Shown here one piece after another: positions 20,522 through 31,335 of a DNA stretch of 64,000 nucleotides. Below the pieces are notes generated by a model, which saw nothing but the letters and a program-made list of their open reading frames with translations, made no database searches and had not been told where the DNA came from. Source of the stretch: Anaerolineales bacterium. Lineage in GTDB: Bacteria; Chloroflexota; Anaerolineae; Anaerolineales; UBA11579. Location of the stretch: the NCBI GenBank assembly GCA_025808555.1, contig CP075526.1, positions 2,098,712 to 2,162,711 of the forward strand. Reading direction: 5' to 3'. Made by a program: the position numbers and the translations under genes. Within the stretch, counting starts at the first letter, position 1. Every line of letters begins with the position of its first letter.

Positions 20522-22540
20522 ATGTCAACTCCCAAAGACCTCGAACAGTTAGCCATCAACACCATTCGCTTCCTTTCGGCGGATGCCGTGCAGCAAGCCA
20601 ATTCCGGCCACCCGGGCCTGCCGATGGGCGCGGCGGCCATGGCCTACGCGCTGTGGACCCGCCACCTGCGCCATAATCCCAAAGACCCCCAATGGGCCAA
20701 CCGTGACCGCTTTGTGCTGTCTGGCGGCCACGGTTCGATGCTGCTGTATTCGCTGTTGCACCTCACCGGCTATCCGCTCTCTCTGGAGGAGATCAAGCGC
20801 TTCCGCCAGTGGGAGAGCAAGACCCCCGGCCATCCGGAGTACTGGGTTGCCCCCGGGGTGGAAACCAGCACCGGCCCGCTGGGCCAGGGCTTCGCCAATG
20901 CGGTCGGCCTGGCTATCGGCCAGGCGCACCTGGCGGCGCGCTTCAACCGCCCGGGCCATGAGATCTTTGACTATTTCACCTATGCCATCGTCACCGATGG
21001 CGACTTGATGGAAGGCATCACCGCTGAAGCCGCCTCGCTGGCTGGGCATCTCAAGCTCGGCAAGCTCATCCTCTTGTACGACGACAACAACATCTCGATC
21101 GATGGCAGCACCCACCTGACCTTCACAGAGGATGTGGGCCTGCGCTTTGAGTCCTACGGCTGGCATGTGCAGCACGTGGCGGATGGCAACGATGTCGAAG
21201 CCATCGACGCCGCACTGGTTGCCGCCCAGGCCGACCCGAGGCCCTCGCTCATCAGGGTCAAGACCATTATCGGCTTTGGTCTGCCCAAGCGCCAGGGCAC
21301 CGAGAAGGCCCACGGCGAACCGCCTGGCAACGAAGAGCTCGACGGCGCCAAGCGCGCCCTCGGCTGGCCGTTGGAGCCACGCTTCCTCATCCCCGGCGAG
21401 GCGCTGGAGCATTTCCGCGGCGCGATGGAGCAGGGGGCTGAGCTCAAAGCCGCCTGGGAGAGCAGGCTGGCTGGTTACAAGGCCGCCCATCCGCAGCAGC
21501 ACGCCGAGTTGCTACGCATCCTGGCCGGTGAGCTGCCCGAAGGCTGGGACGCGGAGCTGCCAGTATTCCCGGCGGATGCCAAGGGCATGGCCACGCGGGT
21601 TTCCTCCGGCAAGGTCATCAATGCCATCGCCGACAAGCTGCCTGATCTGCTGGGCGGCTCGGCCGACCTGCATCCGTCAACCAAGACCTTCATCAACTCC
21701 GCGCCAGACTTCCAGCCCAACACGCCAGAGGGGCGCAGCATCCACTATGGCGTGCGCGAGCATGCCATGGGCGGCATCGTCAACGGGCTCAGCCTGACGC
21801 CGGGCATCATTCCTTTCGGCGCAACCTTCCTGGTCTTCTCGGATTACATGCGCGCCTCCATGCGCCTCTCGGCGCTCTCGCCGTATCCCAGCATCTGGGT
21901 CTTCACGCATGACAGCATTGGCGTGGGCGAGGATGGGCCGACCCACCAGCCGGTCGAGCATCTCGCCGCTTTGCGCGCCATCCCCAACATGCGTGTCATC
22001 CGCCCGGCGGATGCCAACGAGGTGCGCGAGGCCTGGATCGCTGCCGTGCGTGACCGCAAGAACCCGACCACGCTCATCTTCTCCCGGCAAGACCTACCCA
22101 CGCTGGAACGCGGGCGCGGCGGGGAGTTTGCCGCTGCCACGGGTTTGCATAAGGGCGCCTATGTGCTGGCTGACTGGGGCAAGAAGAAAAAGCCTGACAT
22201 TATTTTGATGGCCTCCGGCTCGGAAGTGCCGCTCATCATCGAAGCCGGCCGCAAGCTGGCCAAGGACGGCGTCACTGTGCGCCTGGTTTCCTTCCCCAGC
22301 TGGGAGCTGTTCGTAGCCCAGTCCAAGAGCTACCGTGAGAAGGTGCTGCCGCCGGCCGTGACTGCCCGCCTCTCGGTGGAGGCGGGCGTAGCGCAGGGCT
22401 GGCAGCAGTGGGCCACGGCGCATGTCAGCCTCGAGCGCTTCGGCGCCTCGGCGCCGGGCGACGAGGCCATGCGCAAGCTGGGCTTCAATGCCGCCAACGT
22501 GCTCAAGCACGCCCGCACCCTGCTGCCGAAGAAGAGGTAG
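20522..22540 (+). CDS. tkt: Transketolase
   Basis: This 672-residue thiamine-diphosphate enzyme moves two-carbon units in the non-oxidative pentose phosphate pathway. [51 protein letters not shown] with DDNNISIDG (ThDP/Mg motif), [16 protein letters not shown] and [20 protein letters not shown] are all intact, and the length is normal. TAAAAT (20505-20510) lies 11 bases before the ATG and there is no SD. A DNA methyltransferase and tal follow in the same direction. Confidence 0.97.
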
Positions 22541-22544
22541 CCCG

Positions 22545-23405
22545 GTGCCAGCACGCCGCAAGCTGGCAGTAAAGGCCCGCGTAGTGCATGGCGATAACCT
22601 GGCCGTGCTGCTCGGCCTGCCCGACGCGAGCGTGAACCTGATCTACATTGACCCGCCGTTCAACACCGGCCGCAAGCAGGCCCGCAGCCGCCTGCGCACG
22701 GAGCGCAGCGAGAATGGCGACCGGGTGGGTTTTGGAGGCCAGCGCTACAGCACCACCGTGCTGGGCAGCCGGGCCTTCAACGATGCCTTCGACGACTATC
22801 TGGAATTTCTGGAGCCGCGTTTGCGTGAGGCACACCGCGTGTTGGCGCCGGACGGCAGCATGTACTTCCATGTGGACTACCGCGAAGTGCACTACTGCAA
22901 GATATTGCTGGACGAGATCTTTGGCCGCCAAAATTTCCTGAACGAGATCATCTGGGCCTATGACTACGGCGGCCGCGCCAAGGACCGCTGGCCGGCCAAG
23001 CACGACAATATCCTGCTCTATGTCAAAGATAATAAGGGCTATACCTTCAACGTTGAGGACATCGAGCGCATCCCTTACATGGCGCCAGCCTTGGCCGGTG
23101 AGGCCAAGGCGGAGCGCGGCAAGCTGCCCACGGATACCTGGTGGCATACCATCGTAAGCCCCACCGGCAAAGAAAAAACCGGGTACCCTACCCAGAAGCC
23201 GCTGGGCATCCTGCGCCGCGTTCTTACGGCTTCATCGAATCCGGGTGACCTGGTGCTCGACTTTTTTGCCGGCAGTGGCACAACCGGTGCCGCTGCGCTG
23301 GAGCTGGGTCGCCGGTTTTTGCTGGTGGACAGTAACAAAGAGGCGATCGATGTAATGAAGGAACGCTTTAAGGGGAAAGATGTAGAGTTCGTCAAAGGAG
23401 AATGA
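22545..23405 (+). CDS. Beta-class DNA methyltransferase (N6-adenine/N4-cytosine), orphan
   Basis: This 286-residue protein starts from GTG 22545, four bases after the tkt stop. Catalytic motif IV, IYIDPPFNTG (about residues 32-41), precedes motif I, LDFFAGSGTTGAAALELGRR (about 243-262), the order of beta-class enzymes. Target-recognition sequence lies between (YLEFLEPRLREAHRVL, HVDYREVHYCKILLDEIFG, IIWAYDYGGRAKDRWPAKH). No endonuclease is adjacent, so it is probably solitary, with a regulatory or protective role. Its position between tkt and tal is odd. Confidence 0.9.
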   Translation: MPARRKLAVKARVVHGDNLAVLLGLPDASVNLIYIDPPFNTGRKQARSRLRTERSENGDRVGFGGQRYSTTVLGSRAFNDAFDDYLEFLEPRLREAHRVLAPDGSMYFHVDYREVHYCKILLDEIFGRQNFLNEIIWAYDYGGRAKDRWPAKHDNILLYVKDNKGYTFNVEDIERIPYMAPALAGEAKAERGKLPTDTWWHTIVSPTGKEKTGYPTQKPLGILRRVLTASSNPGDLVLDFFAGSGTTGAAALELGRRFLLVDSNKEAIDVMKERFKGKDVEFVKGE

Positions 23406-23462
23406 GTTGAGAACAGAGCGTTCTCTTCAATTTCTCTCCGAGTGGAAACCAGAAGGAGCCTT

Positions 23463-24584
23463 ATGACCACTAATCCGCAAAAACTGTATGCCCTGGGCCA
23501 GTCCCTGTGGTTCGACAACATCGAACGCCGCTTGCTGGACAATGGTGAGCTGAAGGCTATGATCGAGCGCGGCGATATTTATGGCGTCACCTCCAATCCC
23601 AGCATCTTCAACAACGCCATTGGCAAGTCCGAGGACTACGATGCCCAACTGGCCGAGCTGGCACGGGCCGGCAAGACCACAGCGGAGATCTACGACGCGC
23701 TGACGGTCCAGGATATTCAGGCGGCCTGCGATCTGTTCCGCCCGCTGTATGACAGCACGCGCGGCGGCGATGGCTACGTAAGCATCGAGGTGCATCCGGA
23801 CCTGGCGCATGACACGGCCGCCACAGAGCACGAGGCCCAGCGCCTGTGGGCGTTGGTGGACCGGCCCAACTTGATGGTCAAGATCCCCGCCACCGCCGAG
23901 GGCATCCCTGCCATCCAAGCTTCTATCGCGCGCGGTATCAACATCAACATCACCCTGATCTTCTCGCTGCAGCGCTATGACGCAGTCATCAATGCCTATC
24001 TGGCCGGCCTGGAAGAACGGATCGCCAACAACCTGCCCATCGGGCACATTGCCTCGGTGGCCTCGTTCTTTGTCTCGCGTATTGACACCAAGGTGGATGG
24101 CTGGCTGGAAACATTGGCAGAGCAGGGCGGCGATACCGCTCGCAAAGCCAATGCCCTCATGGGCACGATCGCCGTGGCGAACGCCAAGCTGGCGTACAGG
24201 CTGTTTCTTGAACGCTTCTCTGGGCCGCGCTTTGAAGCCATCGCCCAGAAGGGCGGCCGCCGCCAGCGCCCGTTGTGGGCTTCCACCAGCACCAAGAACC
24301 CCGCATACCCTGACCTGCTGTATGTGGACACCCTGGTCGGTAAAGACACCGTGAACACAGTGCCCCCGCAGACCCTGGAAGCGGCCAAGAACCATGCGGC
24401 GGCCACGCTGAGCATTGAAGACGGCCTGGATGAGGCCCGCTTCCAGCTCGCCAATCTGGAGATGCTGGGGCTCTCGCTGGATAAGGCCACCGACGAGGTG
24501 GAGCAGGAGGGTGTGGCCGCCTTCAGCAAGGCGATCGCCGACCTGTTCGCCACGATCGACCAGCGTGCGGGCGAATTTCGCTAG
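23463..24584 (+). CDS. tal: Transaldolase, long form
   Basis: This 373-residue enzyme exchanges dihydroxyacetone units between sugar phosphates. GVTSNPSIFNNAI, IEVHPDLAHDT, LMVKIPATAEG (Schiff-base Lys), GININITLIFSLQRY and WASTSTKNPAYPD fit the roughly 370-residue transaldolase type often found beside tkt and zwf. I chose ATG 23463 because AAGGAGCC precedes it; the in-frame ATG at 23442 lacks a site. Confidence 0.96.
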   Translation: MTTNPQKLYALGQSLWFDNIERRLLDNGELKAMIERGDIYGVTSNPSIFNNAIGKSEDYDAQLAELARAGKTTAEIYDALTVQDIQAACDLFRPLYDSTRGGDGYVSIEVHPDLAHDTAATEHEAQRLWALVDRPNLMVKIPATAEGIPAIQASIARGININITLIFSLQRYDAVINAYLAGLEERIANNLPIGHIASVASFFVSRIDTKVDGWLETLAEQGGDTARKANALMGTIAVANAKLAYRLFLERFSGPRFEAIAQKGGRRQRPLWASTSTKNPAYPDLLYVDTLVGKDTVNTVPPQTLEAAKNHAAATLSIEDGLDEARFQLANLEMLGLSLDKATDEVEQEGVAAFSKAIADLFATIDQRAGEFR

Positions 24585-24594
24585 TACAGAATAC

Positions 24595-24622
24595 CCAGCC
24601 CACTCAAGAAGGGGCGGGCTGG
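24595..24622 (+). terminator. GC-rich hairpin after tal, weak terminator candidate
   Basis: CCAGCCC (24595-24601) pairs with GGGCTGG (24616-24622) across a 14-base loop. There is no T-run, so it may only slow RNA polymerase or protect the 3' end. Confidence 0.35.
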
Positions 24623-24686
24623 TATGGGGCGTATACTGGTAACACTTCGCCCAAAATAGCGTTATGTCTTGAATGAGGAGAGGCTC

Positions 24687-27440
24687 ATGAACTCATTCCG
24701 CGTGTCTGTTTCACAATGTAGTCTGATCCTGCTGCTGGCCTTGGGCTTGGCGGCTTGCGGCGGCAGCGCCGGAAGTCCGATAGAGTTCCAGCCCACCGCT
24801 ACTCCTGATCTTGAGATACCCATAGAGGACCTGCTGGTGTTTGTGCCCGGCGGGCCTTTTATTATGGGCAGCGACCCGGAGCAGGACACGCAAGCGCGCG
24901 AGGATGAGCTGCCGGCGCGGCGCGTGGTGCTGAACGGTTTCCATATCTATCGCAATGAAGTCACCAACGATATGTATGCGCAGTGTGTGGAAGCCGGACA
25001 GTGCACCTCGCCAATTGTGATCGAGGATGAGGATGATCCCGAGGCCGATACGGCCACCCAGCACTATAGCGACCCGGAGTACCGCGACCATCCTGTTGTG
25101 GGCGTGAACTGGTTCCAGGCGCAAGACTTTTGTGGCTGGCTGAATGCGCGCTTGCCAAGTGAGGCCGAGTGGGAGAAGACCGCCCGCGGCGAGTTGGCAG
25201 CGCTGTATCCCTGGGGTGATGACGAGCCGTTATGTGACCGCGCCAATGGTGGAGACTGTATCCTCGACACCATCACTGAGAAGATCGGCCAGTTGCCACT
25301 GGGCGAGAGCATCTACGAGGCCAATGACCTGGCCGGCAACGTGTGGGAATGGACGGCCGACTGGTACGACCCTGAATATTACGAACTGGGCGTGAGCAGC
25401 AACCCGCAAGGCCCGCAAGAGGGCGAGCTCAAAGTGGTGCGTGGTGGCAGCTATCTGGATGCTGCACCAGATCTGCGATCGGCGGCGCGTTTTGCCCTTG
25501 ACCCGGAGGAAGCCTTCAACGAAGTCGGCTTCCGCTGTGTGCCTATCGGGCAGGGTGTGCCCGCGGGCACACGCGCGCCATACTGCCAACCCGCGTACTC
25601 GCCACTGTGCACCGATCCCGATAATCCCGGCGGCGATTGCACGCCGTCCAATGGCGAGGACAACACCACGGATCTGGAGTGGTTGGGCTTCGCCTGCCCG
25701 AGGGATGGCTATATCCGCTTCACAATTGATGGCGGCGGCCGGTCGGCTGCTGATTATGACGTGACGATCAATGGCATCCCGTACAACTGCTTCGACTCCA
25801 CGGTTTACCCCGGCCGCTGGATCTGCGAAGGCACGGCTCAATCACAAGGCACGCTGGTGAGCATTTCGGCGTGTCCTGCGCCGCAGGGTGCGCTGCCCTC
25901 ACCGCAGTTGGCGGCTTTCACGCCCACGCCGGAGGGGCAGGCTCTGGTTGGCTTCCAGCAGCCTAGCGCGCCAGTCATGCAGCTGGTAGCCTTCGAGCCG
26001 CAAAGCGCGGTGCAGCTCGCTGGGCTGCAGCCGAATGGGCTGCAGGCATTTGCGCCTCAGGCTGCGCCGGCCTTGCAAGCCGCGGCAGCGTACTGCCCCG
26101 AAGGGCTGGTGTTTGACCCGGCTACCGGCCAGTGCCTCCCGCAGGAAGCATCGTGCCCTGATGGCTGGAGCTTTGACACGGCGCAGATGCAATGTGTGCC
26201 GGATGGCCAGTCTGGCTGCCCTGAGGGCACCACGTACAGTGCCGCGGCGCAAGCCTGCGTGCCTGACGGTGGTGGTGATGACCAGCCGGTGTGCCCCGAG
26301 CCGTTCGTGTTCGACCGCACCAGCGGCACCTGCCAACCGCCCACCAACGATGACGGCGGCGGCCTGTGCGGGCCGGGCTACTTCTATGACCGCAACATCA
26401 TGTGCTGCTCGCCGATCCAGGGGCGCCCAGAAACGTGTGATGACGGCAGCGCTCGCAACCCGCTGACGGGCGCGTGTGAGACGCAGGATGTGAATGGCTG
26501 CCCTGAGGGAACCGTCTACAACCAATATGATGGCGTGTGTTACCCCGTCACCATCACGCGTACAGCCAATAACCCCGACAGCAATGTGGCTGTTGAATGT
26601 GGCCCCAACCAATACTACAACTCACGCACGCTGCAATGTGTGGATCTGCCTGACGGCACGTGCGGCCCTGGCTACTACTATGAGAGCCGCCAGCAGACTT
26701 GTGTGCCGACCGATGGCCCCGGCAGCGGGTGCGCGCCGGGCTACACCTTCAGCTCGCGCTTGAACTGCTGTGTGGGTAACCCAGGCAATGACGGCAGCAC
26801 CTGCGCCGACGGCCAGACCGGCACTTCCCGCTTGCAGAGTTTTGCTTTTGCGGCCGCTGCAGGCGGCACCTTCTGTGACCCTGGACCGGGCAACACAGAT
26901 GGATGCCCGCTGGGCTATTACTTCGACACGGCCCAGCAGGCCTGCGTGCCTGCTGCCGGTGCGGGAGTGCCTTCGCAAGATGGCCAATGCCCGCAGGGCA
27001 TGTACTATGACAGCGCGTTTGGTGCCTGCTTCCCAACCACCTCCACTCCTCCTATGGGGTGTGGCCCGGGCCAGTACTTTGACTACCAGCTGGGCTTCTG
27101 TGTGCAGGCGGGTTGTGGTGGTTGTGCGCTCGGCTATACGCTCAACCCGCGCACGCAAACCTGCCAGCCTACCAGCACAACCTCAGAAGGCTGCTGGACT
27201 GTGACGCAGACTGTGCCGGTGTGTGCCTTTGAGCCTACCGCTACGCCAACCTGCCCGACGGGCGAAATTTGGGACCCGATAGCCCTGCGCTGCGATGACA
27301 TCCCCGATGACGGGCCGACTGGCGGGGGCACAAATATCGTTTGTTCAAATTACAACAATAACTTCGCTGCTTGTTCCGCGGCTGGATGCAACTGGTTCCC
27401 GTTTGTTGCTGGCGCAGCTGGCGGAGGCACTTGTTATTAG
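24687..27440 (+). CDS. Lipoprotein with FGE-like (SUMF1) domain and 14 Cys-rich C-x12-C repeats
   Basis: This 917-residue exported lipoprotein has a signal peptide ending in the lipobox LAAC (about residue 19). Residues 50-283 are an FGE-sulfatase fold (FVPGGPFIMGSDPEQ, NEVTNDMYAQCVEAG, ARLPSEAEWEKTARG, GNVWEWTADWYDPEYY, VVRGGSYLD, GFRCVPIG). The catalytic Cys pair of true formylglycine-generating enzymes is missing; GGSYLDAAPDLRSAARF stands in its place. A Cys-containing beta region follows (about 300-400) and then a Gln/Pro-rich linker. Residues about 469-870 hold 14 units of C-x2-G-x2-[FYWL]-x6-C (e.g. CPEGLVFDPATGQC). It is likely disulfide-rich and on the cell surface. ATG 24687 follows GAGGAGAGG. 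Confidence 0.88.
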   Translation: MNSFRVSVSQCSLILLLALGLAACGGSAGSPIEFQPTATPDLEIPIEDLLVFVPGGPFIMGSDPEQDTQAREDELPARRVVLNGFHIYRNEVTNDMYAQCVEAGQCTSPIVIEDEDDPEADTATQHYSDPEYRDHPVVGVNWFQAQDFCGWLNARLPSEAEWEKTARGELAALYPWGDDEPLCDRANGGDCILDTITEKIGQLPLGESIYEANDLAGNVWEWTADWYDPEYYELGVSSNPQGPQEGELKVVRGGSYLDAAPDLRSAARFALDPEEAFNEVGFRCVPIGQGVPAGTRAPYCQPAYSPLCTDPDNPGGDCTPSNGEDNTTDLEWLGFACPRDGYIRFTIDGGGRSAADYDVTINGIPYNCFDSTVYPGRWICEGTAQSQGTLVSISACPAPQGALPSPQLAAFTPTPEGQALVGFQQPSAPVMQLVAFEPQSAVQLAGLQPNGLQAFAPQAAPALQAAAAYCPEGLVFDPATGQCLPQEASCPDGWSFDTAQMQCVPDGQSGCPEGTTYSAAAQACVPDGGGDDQPVCPEPFVFDRTSGTCQPPTNDDGGGLCGPGYFYDRNIMCCSPIQGRPETCDDGSARNPLTGACETQDVNGCPEGTVYNQYDGVCYPVTITRTANNPDSNVAVECGPNQYYNSRTLQCVDLPDGTCGPGYYYESRQQTCVPTDGPGSGCAPGYTFSSRLNCCVGNPGNDGSTCADGQTGTSRLQSFAFAAAAGGTFCDPGPGNTDGCPLGYYFDTAQQACVPAAGAGVPSQDGQCPQGMYYDSAFGACFPTTSTPPMGCGPGQYFDYQLGFCVQAGCGGCALGYTLNPRTQTCQPTSTTSEGCWTVTQTVPVCAFEPTATPTCPTGEIWDPIALRCDDIPDDGPTGGGTNIVCSNYNNNFAACSAAGCNWFPFVAGAAGGGTCY

Positions 27441-27462
27441 TAGAGTTGTTTTAAGACCTCAG

Positions 27463-27494
27463 CGAGGCGCAACCGATTGCGCCTCGTTGTGTTT
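27463..27494 (+). terminator. Hairpin terminator after the Cys-rich lipoprotein
   Basis: CGAGGCGCAA (27463-27472), loop CCGA and TTGCGCCTCG (27477-27486), followed by TTGTGTTT. Confidence 0.75.
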
Positions 27495-27511
27495 AAGAAC
27501 CTAACTTGCTT

Positions 27512-28267
27512 ATGAGCGGTATTGAACTCACACTTGACGATCACTCGATTGCCACATTGTTGGTCAATCGACCACAAGTGCGTAACGGCTTGGACTGGGC
27601 GGCGATGGACGCGTTTGCAGCCGCCATCAAACGCGTCGCAGCTGCCAGGGATATCCGCGCCCTCATCATTACCGGCGCGGGCGAGACCTTCGTCTCCGGT
27701 GGCGACCTGAAGGCGCTGGCGCCATACACCAAACGCAAGGATGGCATGCGCCTGGCGACCGTGATGGGCAAGGCCCTGGGCGCGCTGCGCGGCCTGCATT
27801 GCCCGACCATTGCCGCCATCAATGGCCCGGCGCGGGGCGGCGGGGCCGAGATCGCCGTGGCGTGTGACCAGCGCATTATGGCCGAGGATGCCGATATTGG
27901 CTTCGTGCATGCCAAGCTGGGCATCACCACAGCGTGGGGCGGGGCGCGCTACCTGCTGCAGCTGGTGGGCTATCCCACCGCGCTGGAGCTGCTGACCACG
28001 GCGCGGGTGTTGCCGGCCCACGAGGCCAAAGCCATCGGCCTGGTGGGCCATCTCAGCGCGCCGGGTGGCGCATTGGAGGCGGCCCGCACGCTGGCGGCCG
28101 AGATGGCCCAGCACCCGGCCGAAGCGGTGCAGGCGGCCAAGCGGCTGCTGCAGTTCGCGGTGGCCAGCCCGCTGGTGGCGCGGCACGCCGAGCGCCGCCT
28201 GTTCTCGTTCCTGTGGGACACCGAGTATCGCCGCCAGGCGGTTGCCCGCTTTTTGAATCGCAAGTAG
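27512..28267 (+). CDS. Enoyl-CoA hydratase/isomerase family protein
   Basis: This 251-residue crotonase-fold enzyme probably hydrates enoyl-CoA or isomerises a related thioester. LLVNRPQVRNGLDWAAMDAF, ITGAGETFVSGGDLKALAP (oxyanion-hole Gly), INGPARGGGAEIAVACDQRI and GFVHAKLGITTAWGGARYL mark the family. The first catalytic Glu usually found in GGGxE...A is present as AEIA, and the second region has K-L-G-I in place of PE-x-x-G, so the exact reaction is unclear. No SD is visible before ATG 27512. Confidence 0.85.
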   Translation: MSGIELTLDDHSIATLLVNRPQVRNGLDWAAMDAFAAAIKRVAAARDIRALIITGAGETFVSGGDLKALAPYTKRKDGMRLATVMGKALGALRGLHCPTIAAINGPARGGGAEIAVACDQRIMAEDADIGFVHAKLGITTAWGGARYLLQLVGYPTALELLTTARVLPAHEAKAIGLVGHLSAPGGALEAARTLAAEMAQHPAEAVQAAKRLLQFAVASPLVARHAERRLFSFLWDTEYRRQAVARFLNRK

Positions 28268-28465
28268 GCTGTATTCGCATAGTGCATACGAAGGGGGAAG
28301 GAACCTTTACGAATTGGAAATCGGCTGGTTTTTGCCTGCCCTAAAGGATTCCTCGGCTTGCATGTATTTTGAATCTGCATAACTAAAAACGCCGCCTCGG
28401 AATGACCTCAAAATGTTCAACTCGGTGGATAGATTATAGTAGTGCAGTGACCTGAGGAGGTTGCC

Positions 28466-28888
28466 ATGGCCTCTGCTCCTGCGAGTGTTGCTGAGTACAT
28501 CAAAACGTTTCCAAAAGGTACGCAAGAGAAACTGGTTGCCATTCGCAAGATCATCAAGGATGTTGCACCCACAGCCAGCGAATCTGTCAGCTATCGCATT
28601 GCCGGCTACAAGCTGGATGGCAAGGTGCTGATGTATTTTGCCGGGCACAGCCAGCATGTCGCCGTGTATCCCATTCCGCCCCTGCCAGCAGAGACGGAAC
28701 GAGCCGTCAGGCCCTACCTGGTTTCCAAAGGTACTTTACGCTTTGCGCTGGATAAGCCGCTGCCGCTGGGCTTGATCCGCAAAGTGGCACAAGGGCATGT
28801 TAGGAGAGTGCGCCCGGCAGGCGCCAAGGCGCCGGCTAAGAAGGCTCCCAAGAAAGCTGCGCCCGAAAAGCGCGCCGCTGAGAAGTAG
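28466..28888 (+). CDS. DUF1801 (YdhG/frataxin-like fold) protein with basic tail
   Basis: This 140-residue protein is probably a small iron- or nucleic-acid-related protein of the DUF1801 family: EYIKTFPKGTQEKLVAIRKI, ESVSYRIAGYKLDGKVLMYFA, HVAVYPIPP and KGTLRFALDKPLPLGLIRKV. The last 25 residues are Lys/Ala/Pro-rich (KAPAKKAPKKAAPEKRA), a tail that could bind nucleic acid. GAGGAGG lies upstream, and TATAGT (about 28434) is a candidate -10. Confidence 0.85.
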   Translation: MASAPASVAEYIKTFPKGTQEKLVAIRKIIKDVAPTASESVSYRIAGYKLDGKVLMYFAGHSQHVAVYPIPPLPAETERAVRPYLVSKGTLRFALDKPLPLGLIRKVAQGHVRRVRPAGAKAPAKKAPKKAAPEKRAAEK

Positions 28889-28924
28889 CGCGGAATTACA
28901 CAGAAGTTGTACACAGGAGTTGTT

Positions 28925-29836
28925 ATGAAGATTGCCATGATCGGCCTGGGCCGCATGGGCGGCAACATGAGCCGCCGCTTGCTGAAAGCAGGCCACCAGG
29001 TAGTGGGCTACAACCTGAGCGAAGACACCACGCGCCAGCTAGAGCAGGAGGCTGGGCTGCTGCCCGCATTCTCGCTAAATGAGGTTGTGGGCCAACTTGA
29101 GGCACCCCGGGCGGTGTGGCTGATGCTGCCGGCGGGCGAAGCCACCGAAAGCACGATCGAAGCGCTGGCTGGCCAGCTGGCCGCCGGTGACGTGATCATT
29201 GACGGCGGCAACGCCAACTTTCGGGACAGCATGCGCCGGGCGGCTATGCTGGCTGAGCGTGGCATCCATTTTGTAGACGTGGGCGTCAGCGGCGGCGTGT
29301 GGGGGCTGGAGAACGGGTATGGCTTGATGATCGGTGGGGATGCGGGTGCAGTCAGCCGCCTGGAGCCGGTTTTCAAGGCGCTGGCGCCAGCCGAGGACAA
29401 GGGCTGGGGCCATGTGGGGCCGAGCGGGGCTGGGCACTACGTCAAGATGGTGCACAACGGCATCGAGTACGGCCTGATGCAGGCCTATGCTGAAGGCTTT
29501 GAGCTGATGGCGACCAAAGAGGAGTTTGGGCTGGACGTGCACCAAATCGCTGAGATGTGGCGGTATGGCACGGTAGTGCGCTCCTGGCTGCTGGATCTGG
29601 CAGCCCGCGCACTGGAATCTGACGCAAAACTCACAGATATTGCTGGCTATGTAGAAGATTCTGGCGAAGGACGCTGGACTGTTTTTGAGGCGATCAACCA
29701 GGATGTGCCCGCGCCGGTGATCACCTTGTCGCTGATGCAGCGCTTTGCCAGCCGGCAGCCGGAAAGCTACGCCAACAAGCTGATCGCAGCGCTGCGCAAC
29801 CAGTTCGGCGGCCATGCGGTGAAGAAGGCCGAATGA
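28925..29836 (+). CDS. gnd: 6-phosphogluconate dehydrogenase, decarboxylating (short NAD-type)
   Basis: This 303-residue enzyme oxidises 6-phosphogluconate to ribulose 5-phosphate. [20 protein letters not shown] is the dinucleotide fold; [29 protein letters not shown] and [20 protein letters not shown] hold substrate and catalytic Lys-Asn residues. It is about 300 residues, like the GntZ/YqeC type rather than the 470-residue form. ATG 28925 follows ACAGGAG. It overlaps zwf by ATGA, so both oxidative pentose-phosphate steps are coupled. Confidence 0.95.
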
Positions 29837-31335
29837 GCAGCAAGAACGGGCGTGCCAGCGCTGCGGCTCTAGTTATTTTCGGCATCACTGGTGACCTGGC
29901 GCACCGCAAGCTGGTGCCGGCGCTGTACCAGCTTGCCCTGGACGGCCAGCTGCCGCCGGAGACCAGCATCATTGGCGTGGGCCGCCGCGAGTGGAGCGAC
30001 GACAAACTTCGCAGCGAAATGCGTGTAGCCATAGAGAAGTTTGCGCGCACGCAACCTGTGGACAAAGCCGCTTTGGACGGCCTGCTGGGTCGCATGGTGT
30101 ATGTGTATGGCGATTTTGGCGAGAAGCCGGGTTACGAGCGCCTGAAGGCCAAGCTGGAGGAACTGGGCGCGCACAATCGCCTGTATTACCTGGCTACGCC
30201 GCCCAGTGTATATGACGAGATCATTACCAACCTGGGCGAGGCTAACCTGGCCCAGAATGACCGCGGATGGACTCGTATCATTGTCGAAAAACCCTATGGA
30301 CATGACCTGGCTTCGGCGCAGGAACTGGAGACCATCATCCACCGGGTCTTCGACGAAGAGCAGATCTTTCGTATTGACCATTATCTGGGCAAAGAGACGG
30401 TGCAGAATATTTTGTTCTTCCGCTTTGCCAACGGCATCTTTGAGCCGCTGTGGAACCGCCGTTATGTGAACTGCGTGCAGATCACGGTTGCGGAGACGAT
30501 CGGCGTGGATGGGCGGGCGGCCTATTTTGACAGCGCCGGGGTCATCCGCGATATTGTGCAGAACCATGCCCTGCAACTGCTGACGCTGACTGCAATGGAG
30601 GCGCCCGTGGCGTTCAATGCGGATGCGGTGCGCGATGAGAAGGTCAAAGTGCTGCGGGCGCTACGCCCGCTGACCGGCGACGAAGCGCTCAAGAGCACGC
30701 TGCGAGCACAATACGGGGCGGGTAAGCAGGATGGCAAGCAGGTCGACGCCTACCTGGCGCATGAAGGCGTGGCGACGGATTCGCAGACCGAGACATTCCT
30801 TGCCATTCGGGTGGCCATCGACAATTGGCGCTGGGCCGGCGTGCCGTTCTTCATCCGCTCAGGCAAGCATTTGGCTGAGCGCGTGACCGAGATCGCCATC
30901 CAGTATCGTCAGGTGCCGCTTGCCTTGTTCGGCGCGCAGAACATGGCCGGGGATGCACCTAACCGGCTGGTGCTTAATATCCAGCCGGACGAAGGCATCA
31001 CGCTGACCTTCGGCGCTAAGGTACCCGGGCCGAACAACAAACTCAAGTCGGTCAAGATGGACTTCTCGTATGCAGACGCGTTTGGCGCCAGCACGCCGGA
31101 GGCGTATGAGCGTCTGCTGCTGGACTGCATGCACGGCGACGCTACGCTGTTCACGCGCAGCGATGAAGTGCTGGAAGCGTGGAAATTTATCGACGGGGTC
31201 TTGCAGGCCTGGCAGGCACAGCCCAATAGCAAGCTGCCGCAATACGCGCCGGGCAGTTGGGGGCCGGAGGAGAATCACAAATTTATTCGGGAGCACGGCT
31301 ATAGCTGGCGCGACATGGAGGAGGTGCCGGGCTAG
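29833..31335 (+). CDS. zwf: Glucose-6-phosphate 1-dehydrogenase
   Basis: This 500-residue enzyme makes the first oxidative step of the pentose phosphate pathway with NAD(P). [21 protein letters not shown] is the cofactor loop and [16 protein letters not shown] holds the substrate and catalytic His. It starts within the gnd stop. Its end overlaps the convergent Nudix gene by four bases, with no terminator between. No 6-phosphogluconolactonase gene is seen here. Confidence 0.97.

Follow-up and report, generated by a model that had tools for sequence, protein, structure and literature searches.

An array of fifteen C-x12-C units resembling half of a CBM14 domain in a predicted lipoprotein of an Anaerolineales bacterium

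The window analysed, a 64,000-nucleotide stretch of contig CP075526.1 from an Anaerolineales bacterium, contains a gene for a 917-residue lipoprotein (24687-27440, plus strand, as are all features of this gene described below) whose last half carries 15 C-x12-C units in a single open frame at 26094-27293. Judged from sequence, each of these units resembles the hairpin that forms half of a CBM14 domain (PF01607, the peritrophin-A chitin-binding domain of animals) and not a whole CBM14 domain, and the array would accordingly consist of hairpin-only modules as distinct from chitin-binding domains. The protein is best read, at a probability of about 0.5, as a cell-surface stalk or adhesin, extended and stiffened by disulfides, a reading for which we infer the disulfide pairing, the surface location and the adhesive function.

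The gene is preceded by a ribosome binding site (GGAGAGG) just 5' of its ATG, and two further genomes from its genus contain orthologues that are 73-86% identical. Its product begins with a signal peptide and a lipobox ending at Cys24 (LALGLAAC; 24687-24758), within which L21, A23 and C24 are invariant across all 10 aligned orthologues. There follows a domain resembling FGE/SUMF1 (residues 50-285; 24834-25541), supported by matches to Pfam FGE-sulfatase (3.4e-50) and to the solved FGE structure 6muj (3.9e-28). The stretch GGSYLDAAPDLRSAARF aligns with the segment of 6muj that carries both catalytic cysteines, neither of which is present in the window protein, and formylglycine catalysis was rejected because of their absence. 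In these respects the protein is similar to the lipoproteins PorK and GldK of the T9SS ring, which likewise carry an FGE-like domain lacking the two catalytic cysteines; according to the portion of the literature consulted, PorK reuses the FGE fold as a structural hub after loss of the same two residues. However, the score of the window protein against the GldK model (108 bits) falls far under the cut-off of 350 bits, and no hairpin array is described for PorK in that portion.

Beyond the FGE-like domain lies a cysteine-containing domain (residues 300-397; 25584-25877), most of whose cysteines are conserved among orthologues; it is predicted to be mostly beta-strands, located at residues 331-397, and comparison with the PDB returned weak matches only, mostly antibody entries. 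A spacer with abundant Ala, Pro and Gln (residues 398-469; 25878-26093), for which flexibility is suggested by a pLDDT of ~25 over most of its length, then leads into the array, and the protein ends with a C-terminal mini-module of the GCxW type (CSNYNNNFAACSAAGCNWFPF...C; 27342-27437), similar tails being present in several orthologues and in short members of the family.

A motif scan placed units 1-6 at residues 470, 490, 511, 536, 561 and 584 (26094-26477), units 7-10 at residues 605, 638, 659 and 682 (26499-26771), and units 11-15 at residues 740, 768, 792, 813 and 856 (26904-27293). The repeats reported in the first-pass annotation are thus real, if one more numerous than the 14 it had counted, and the variable linkers it described were borne out by a range of 6 to 44 residues. 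The x12 spacing is common to all 15 units, whereas the strict motif proposed at the same time, C-x2-G-x2-[FYWL]-x6-C, is satisfied exactly in 12; the deviants are CPEPFVFDRTSGTC and CGPNQYYNSRTLQC, in which the Gly is missing, and CDDGSARNPLTGAC, in which the aromatic residue is missing. Two units, 26367-26408 (NIMCC) and 26730-26771 (RLNCC; unit 10), end in a CC pair, so that the spacing can be counted as x11 or x12. Both are kept as CC in most orthologues, a comparable CC unit occurs in short family members, and the additional cysteine may pair with another one further downstream. The 15 C-x12-C pairs observed in the region compare with a mean of 3.1 and a maximum of 9 when its residues were shuffled 5,000 times; with a looser motif, itself fitted to the data, the corresponding shuffle mean was 0.125 against 15 observed.

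The suggestion that the repeat belongs to no named family did not survive comparison with Pfam. The whole protein matched CBM_14 in 11 stretches, scoring 72.8 bits where the cut-off is 22.1, and the repeat region alone scored 86.7 bits; the best stretch, residues 467-487, corresponds to profile positions 28-48 of 53. Four control sequences kept the Cys, Gly and aromatic positions in place while the remaining residues were shuffled among units: the match was absent in three and reached 18.2 bits, below the cut-off, in the fourth, a loss indicating that it depends on more than spacing. A single shuffle with only the cysteines fixed likewise gave no CBM_14 match. The known repeat families cited in the first-pass annotation as examples of a refuting match, namely EGF-like, TIL and furin-like, were not among the Pfam matches up to E = 10; the refuting match was thus obtained in part, by CBM_14, over the second half of the domain only.

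At residue level the likeness takes the form C-P-x-G-x-x-[FY]-[DN]-x(5)-C. In published structures of human chitotriosidase (CHIT1), the segment equivalent to the matched profile positions is a hairpin in which Cys450 and Cys463 are bridged with the same x12 spacing, a spacing found in all 15 units of the array, where hairpins are predicted at modest confidence. Given the above-threshold CBM_14 score, the repeats might be read as true chitin- or GlcNAc-binding modules tethering the cell to chitin or peptidoglycan. Three CHIT1 residues, Pro451, Leu454 and Trp465, are published as mattering for chitin binding, and the hairpin retains the sites of the first two, with Pro at the first in 8 of the 15 units. 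By way of contrast, the chitin-contacting aromatic residue located two positions past the second cysteine (Trp465 in CHIT1, Tyr103 in Avr4) occurs in none of the 15 units, 10 of which have Pro, the commonest residue, at that site, and in only 6 of 148 C-x12-C segments from 13 homologous proteins. The units also lack the first beta-sheet and the first three strands of CBM14, the equivalent of Cys420-Cys440 and the other disulfides outside the hairpin, though the CHIT1 cysteines are reported to be critical to its chitin binding. They differ from CBM14, too, in following one another 15 times along a lipoprotein from a bacterium. On these sequence comparisons chitin binding would appear improbable. 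A nearly complete CBM_14 (43.4 bits, profile positions 5-49) was recorded in a 95-residue frame of a fragmented genome from the same phylum (L103:1411-1698, plus strand); this frame looks animal-like and may represent contamination.

Other resemblances are more restricted. With a unit profile, a local C-P-x-G...C likeness was detected to the 25 kDa polyphenol-binding protein 8in3 (5.5e-6) and to a cysteine-rich segment of VWF (0.007), but these matches are short and local only, and Pfam TIL is unmatched by the window protein. Foldseek and VIA-align, applied to a six-unit model, gave no significant match to solved structures: the top Foldseek entries were serial cysteine-rich beads of the EGF-like or LDL-receptor type (megalin, Pfs25), with E-values of 0.03 or worse. 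Such beads are larger modules, with more cysteines, than the hairpin units. Searched by sequence against the PDB, the whole array returned chance antibody entries only.

In the AlphaFold predictions every unit takes the form of a turn flanked by a pair of short strands, at low confidence: the mean pLDDT was 40 for the whole protein and 62 for units 1-6 (~75 in units 1 and 2), with a pTM of 0.26. Such low confidence and the lack of a significant structural match fit flexible beads without proving them. Each unit is probably a beta-hairpin closed by one putative disulfide. A chain of small disulfide-closed loops on the cell surface, as originally envisaged, is in keeping with the predicted hairpins, the lipobox, the proteins for anchoring and folding encoded in the genome, and the conservation of the cysteines, higher than that of any other unit residue in the orthologue alignment; the disulfides and the surface location would remain its presumptive parts.

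Within its own taxonomic family the array is carried by 10 of 24 genomes. Overall identity is 86% and 72% to near relatives and 37-52% to distant ones, and the unit cysteines are kept at 32 of 32 positions in the near orthologues and at 88-97% in the distant ones. Several other members of the genus, including three with genomes >90% complete, gave no match to the array. Individual units are 36-91% identical to their counterparts in other species, compared with 24% to each other, which indicates that the array is old and not recently copied. A recent tandem expansion at the DNA level was ruled out, the window units sharing 46% nucleotide identity on average and 67% at most.

A second family of the same order possesses a shorter form, again a lipoprotein that includes an FGE-like domain but with 4-6 C-x12-C segments; using the C-terminal part of one such short form as query, matches were obtained in 40 of the order's 301 genomes, and 39 of these belong to the second family. 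Among named relatives with FGE, those examined at the level of the FGE frame have the domain in other settings, with no array. At L094 and in the adjoining stretch of genome G033 (contig C1:2918393-2922969), three FGE-like matches stand in a row; of the two frames that were read, both terminate in tails rich in cysteine, and four C-x12-C segments are present in one. Searches of PHROGs and of phage records gave no match, and plasmid records gave three weak ones at 22-26% identity.

These comparisons bear directly on what is in our opinion the main rival to a stalk or adhesin, chitin and metal binding being less likely: that the array is a passive spacer which binds nothing and lifts the C-terminal module off the membrane. 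A mere spacer would sit well with the variable number of segments among homologues (4-6 in the short form, 10-17 in long forms that are complete), and with a drift of non-cysteine unit residues in distant orthologues (0.29-0.32 identity) almost like that of the linkers (0.28-0.30). Against it, orthologous units retain their identity and order, including both CC units, and the aromatic column across homologues is mostly F or Y. We regard this alternative as credible, with something like one chance in four of being correct.

In the window the gene immediately upstream of the lipoprotein gene encodes transaldolase; relatives belonging to two genera show the same adjacency, which fits vertical descent. 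The surrounding genes (20522-31335) are those of the pentose-phosphate pathway, encoding transketolase, transaldolase, 6-phosphogluconate dehydrogenase and glucose-6-phosphate dehydrogenase, and no functional neighbour was found among them; nor did a promoter and terminator scan detect either element. A lone N6/N4 DNA methyltransferase gene (22599-23405; Pfam 2.3e-53) is situated between transketolase and transaldolase.

Genes for Lgt, VKOR and DsbA-like thioredoxins (Thioredoxin_4) are present elsewhere in the same genome, making both lipid anchoring and oxidative folding possible. The presence of this oxidising system is also relevant to the idea that the units bind metal or conduct redox chemistry, in the manner of a metallothionein or thiol buffer, to which the abundance of cysteine (41 in 452 residues) lends some colour. 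The wide and uniform x12 spacing argues against any such role, as does a sequence scan in which CxxC occurred once and CxC and heme CxxCH motifs were not found, and we consider it very unlikely.

The stalk or adhesin is preferred because of the 15 units of fixed spacing, the CBM_14 match lost on shuffling, the x12 disulfide of CHIT1, the conservation of the cysteines and the predicted hairpins, together with the genomic occurrence of VKOR, Lgt and Thioredoxin_4 and the absence of CxC and heme CxxCH motifs; it is weakened by the poor quality of the models, the lack of a significant structural match or a functional neighbour, and the absence of an array match in several other genomes of the genus. 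Were it correct, the secreted lipoprotein would be anchored in the cytoplasmic membrane at Cys24, with the non-catalytic FGE-like domain and the cysteine-containing domain, mostly strands in its low-confidence model, lying near the membrane. Beyond the flexible spacer would come the 15 units as small beads, every one a beta-hairpin with its own C-x12-C disulfide formed outside the cytoplasm by VKOR and the DsbA-like proteins, and together these beads would constitute an extended, protease-resistant stalk whose exposed aromatic faces would probably bind polysaccharide, cell wall or neighbouring cells in a weak and multivalent fashion.

Both the FGE-like pseudoenzyme domain and the hairpin resembling half of CBM14 are already known, and the array is therefore an unusual variant of known parts, not an unknown kind of repeat. 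A literature search of limited reach found no description of this array, of its combination of domains, or of lone hairpins in series. More tentatively, the C-x12-C hairpin may be a self-standing 14-residue repeat, smaller than EGF or TIL modules, of which these bacteria join 4 to 17 copies to make a surface fibre armoured with disulfides, with animal CBM14 containing the same hairpin as half of a larger domain. In practical terms, a 'CBM_14' label on bacterial proteins of this type should not be equated with chitin binding. If the hairpins do fold alone, few disulfide repeat modules would be smaller, and the array would illustrate the building of a cysteine-rich surface fibre by a bacterium whose oxidative folding is of the VKOR type.
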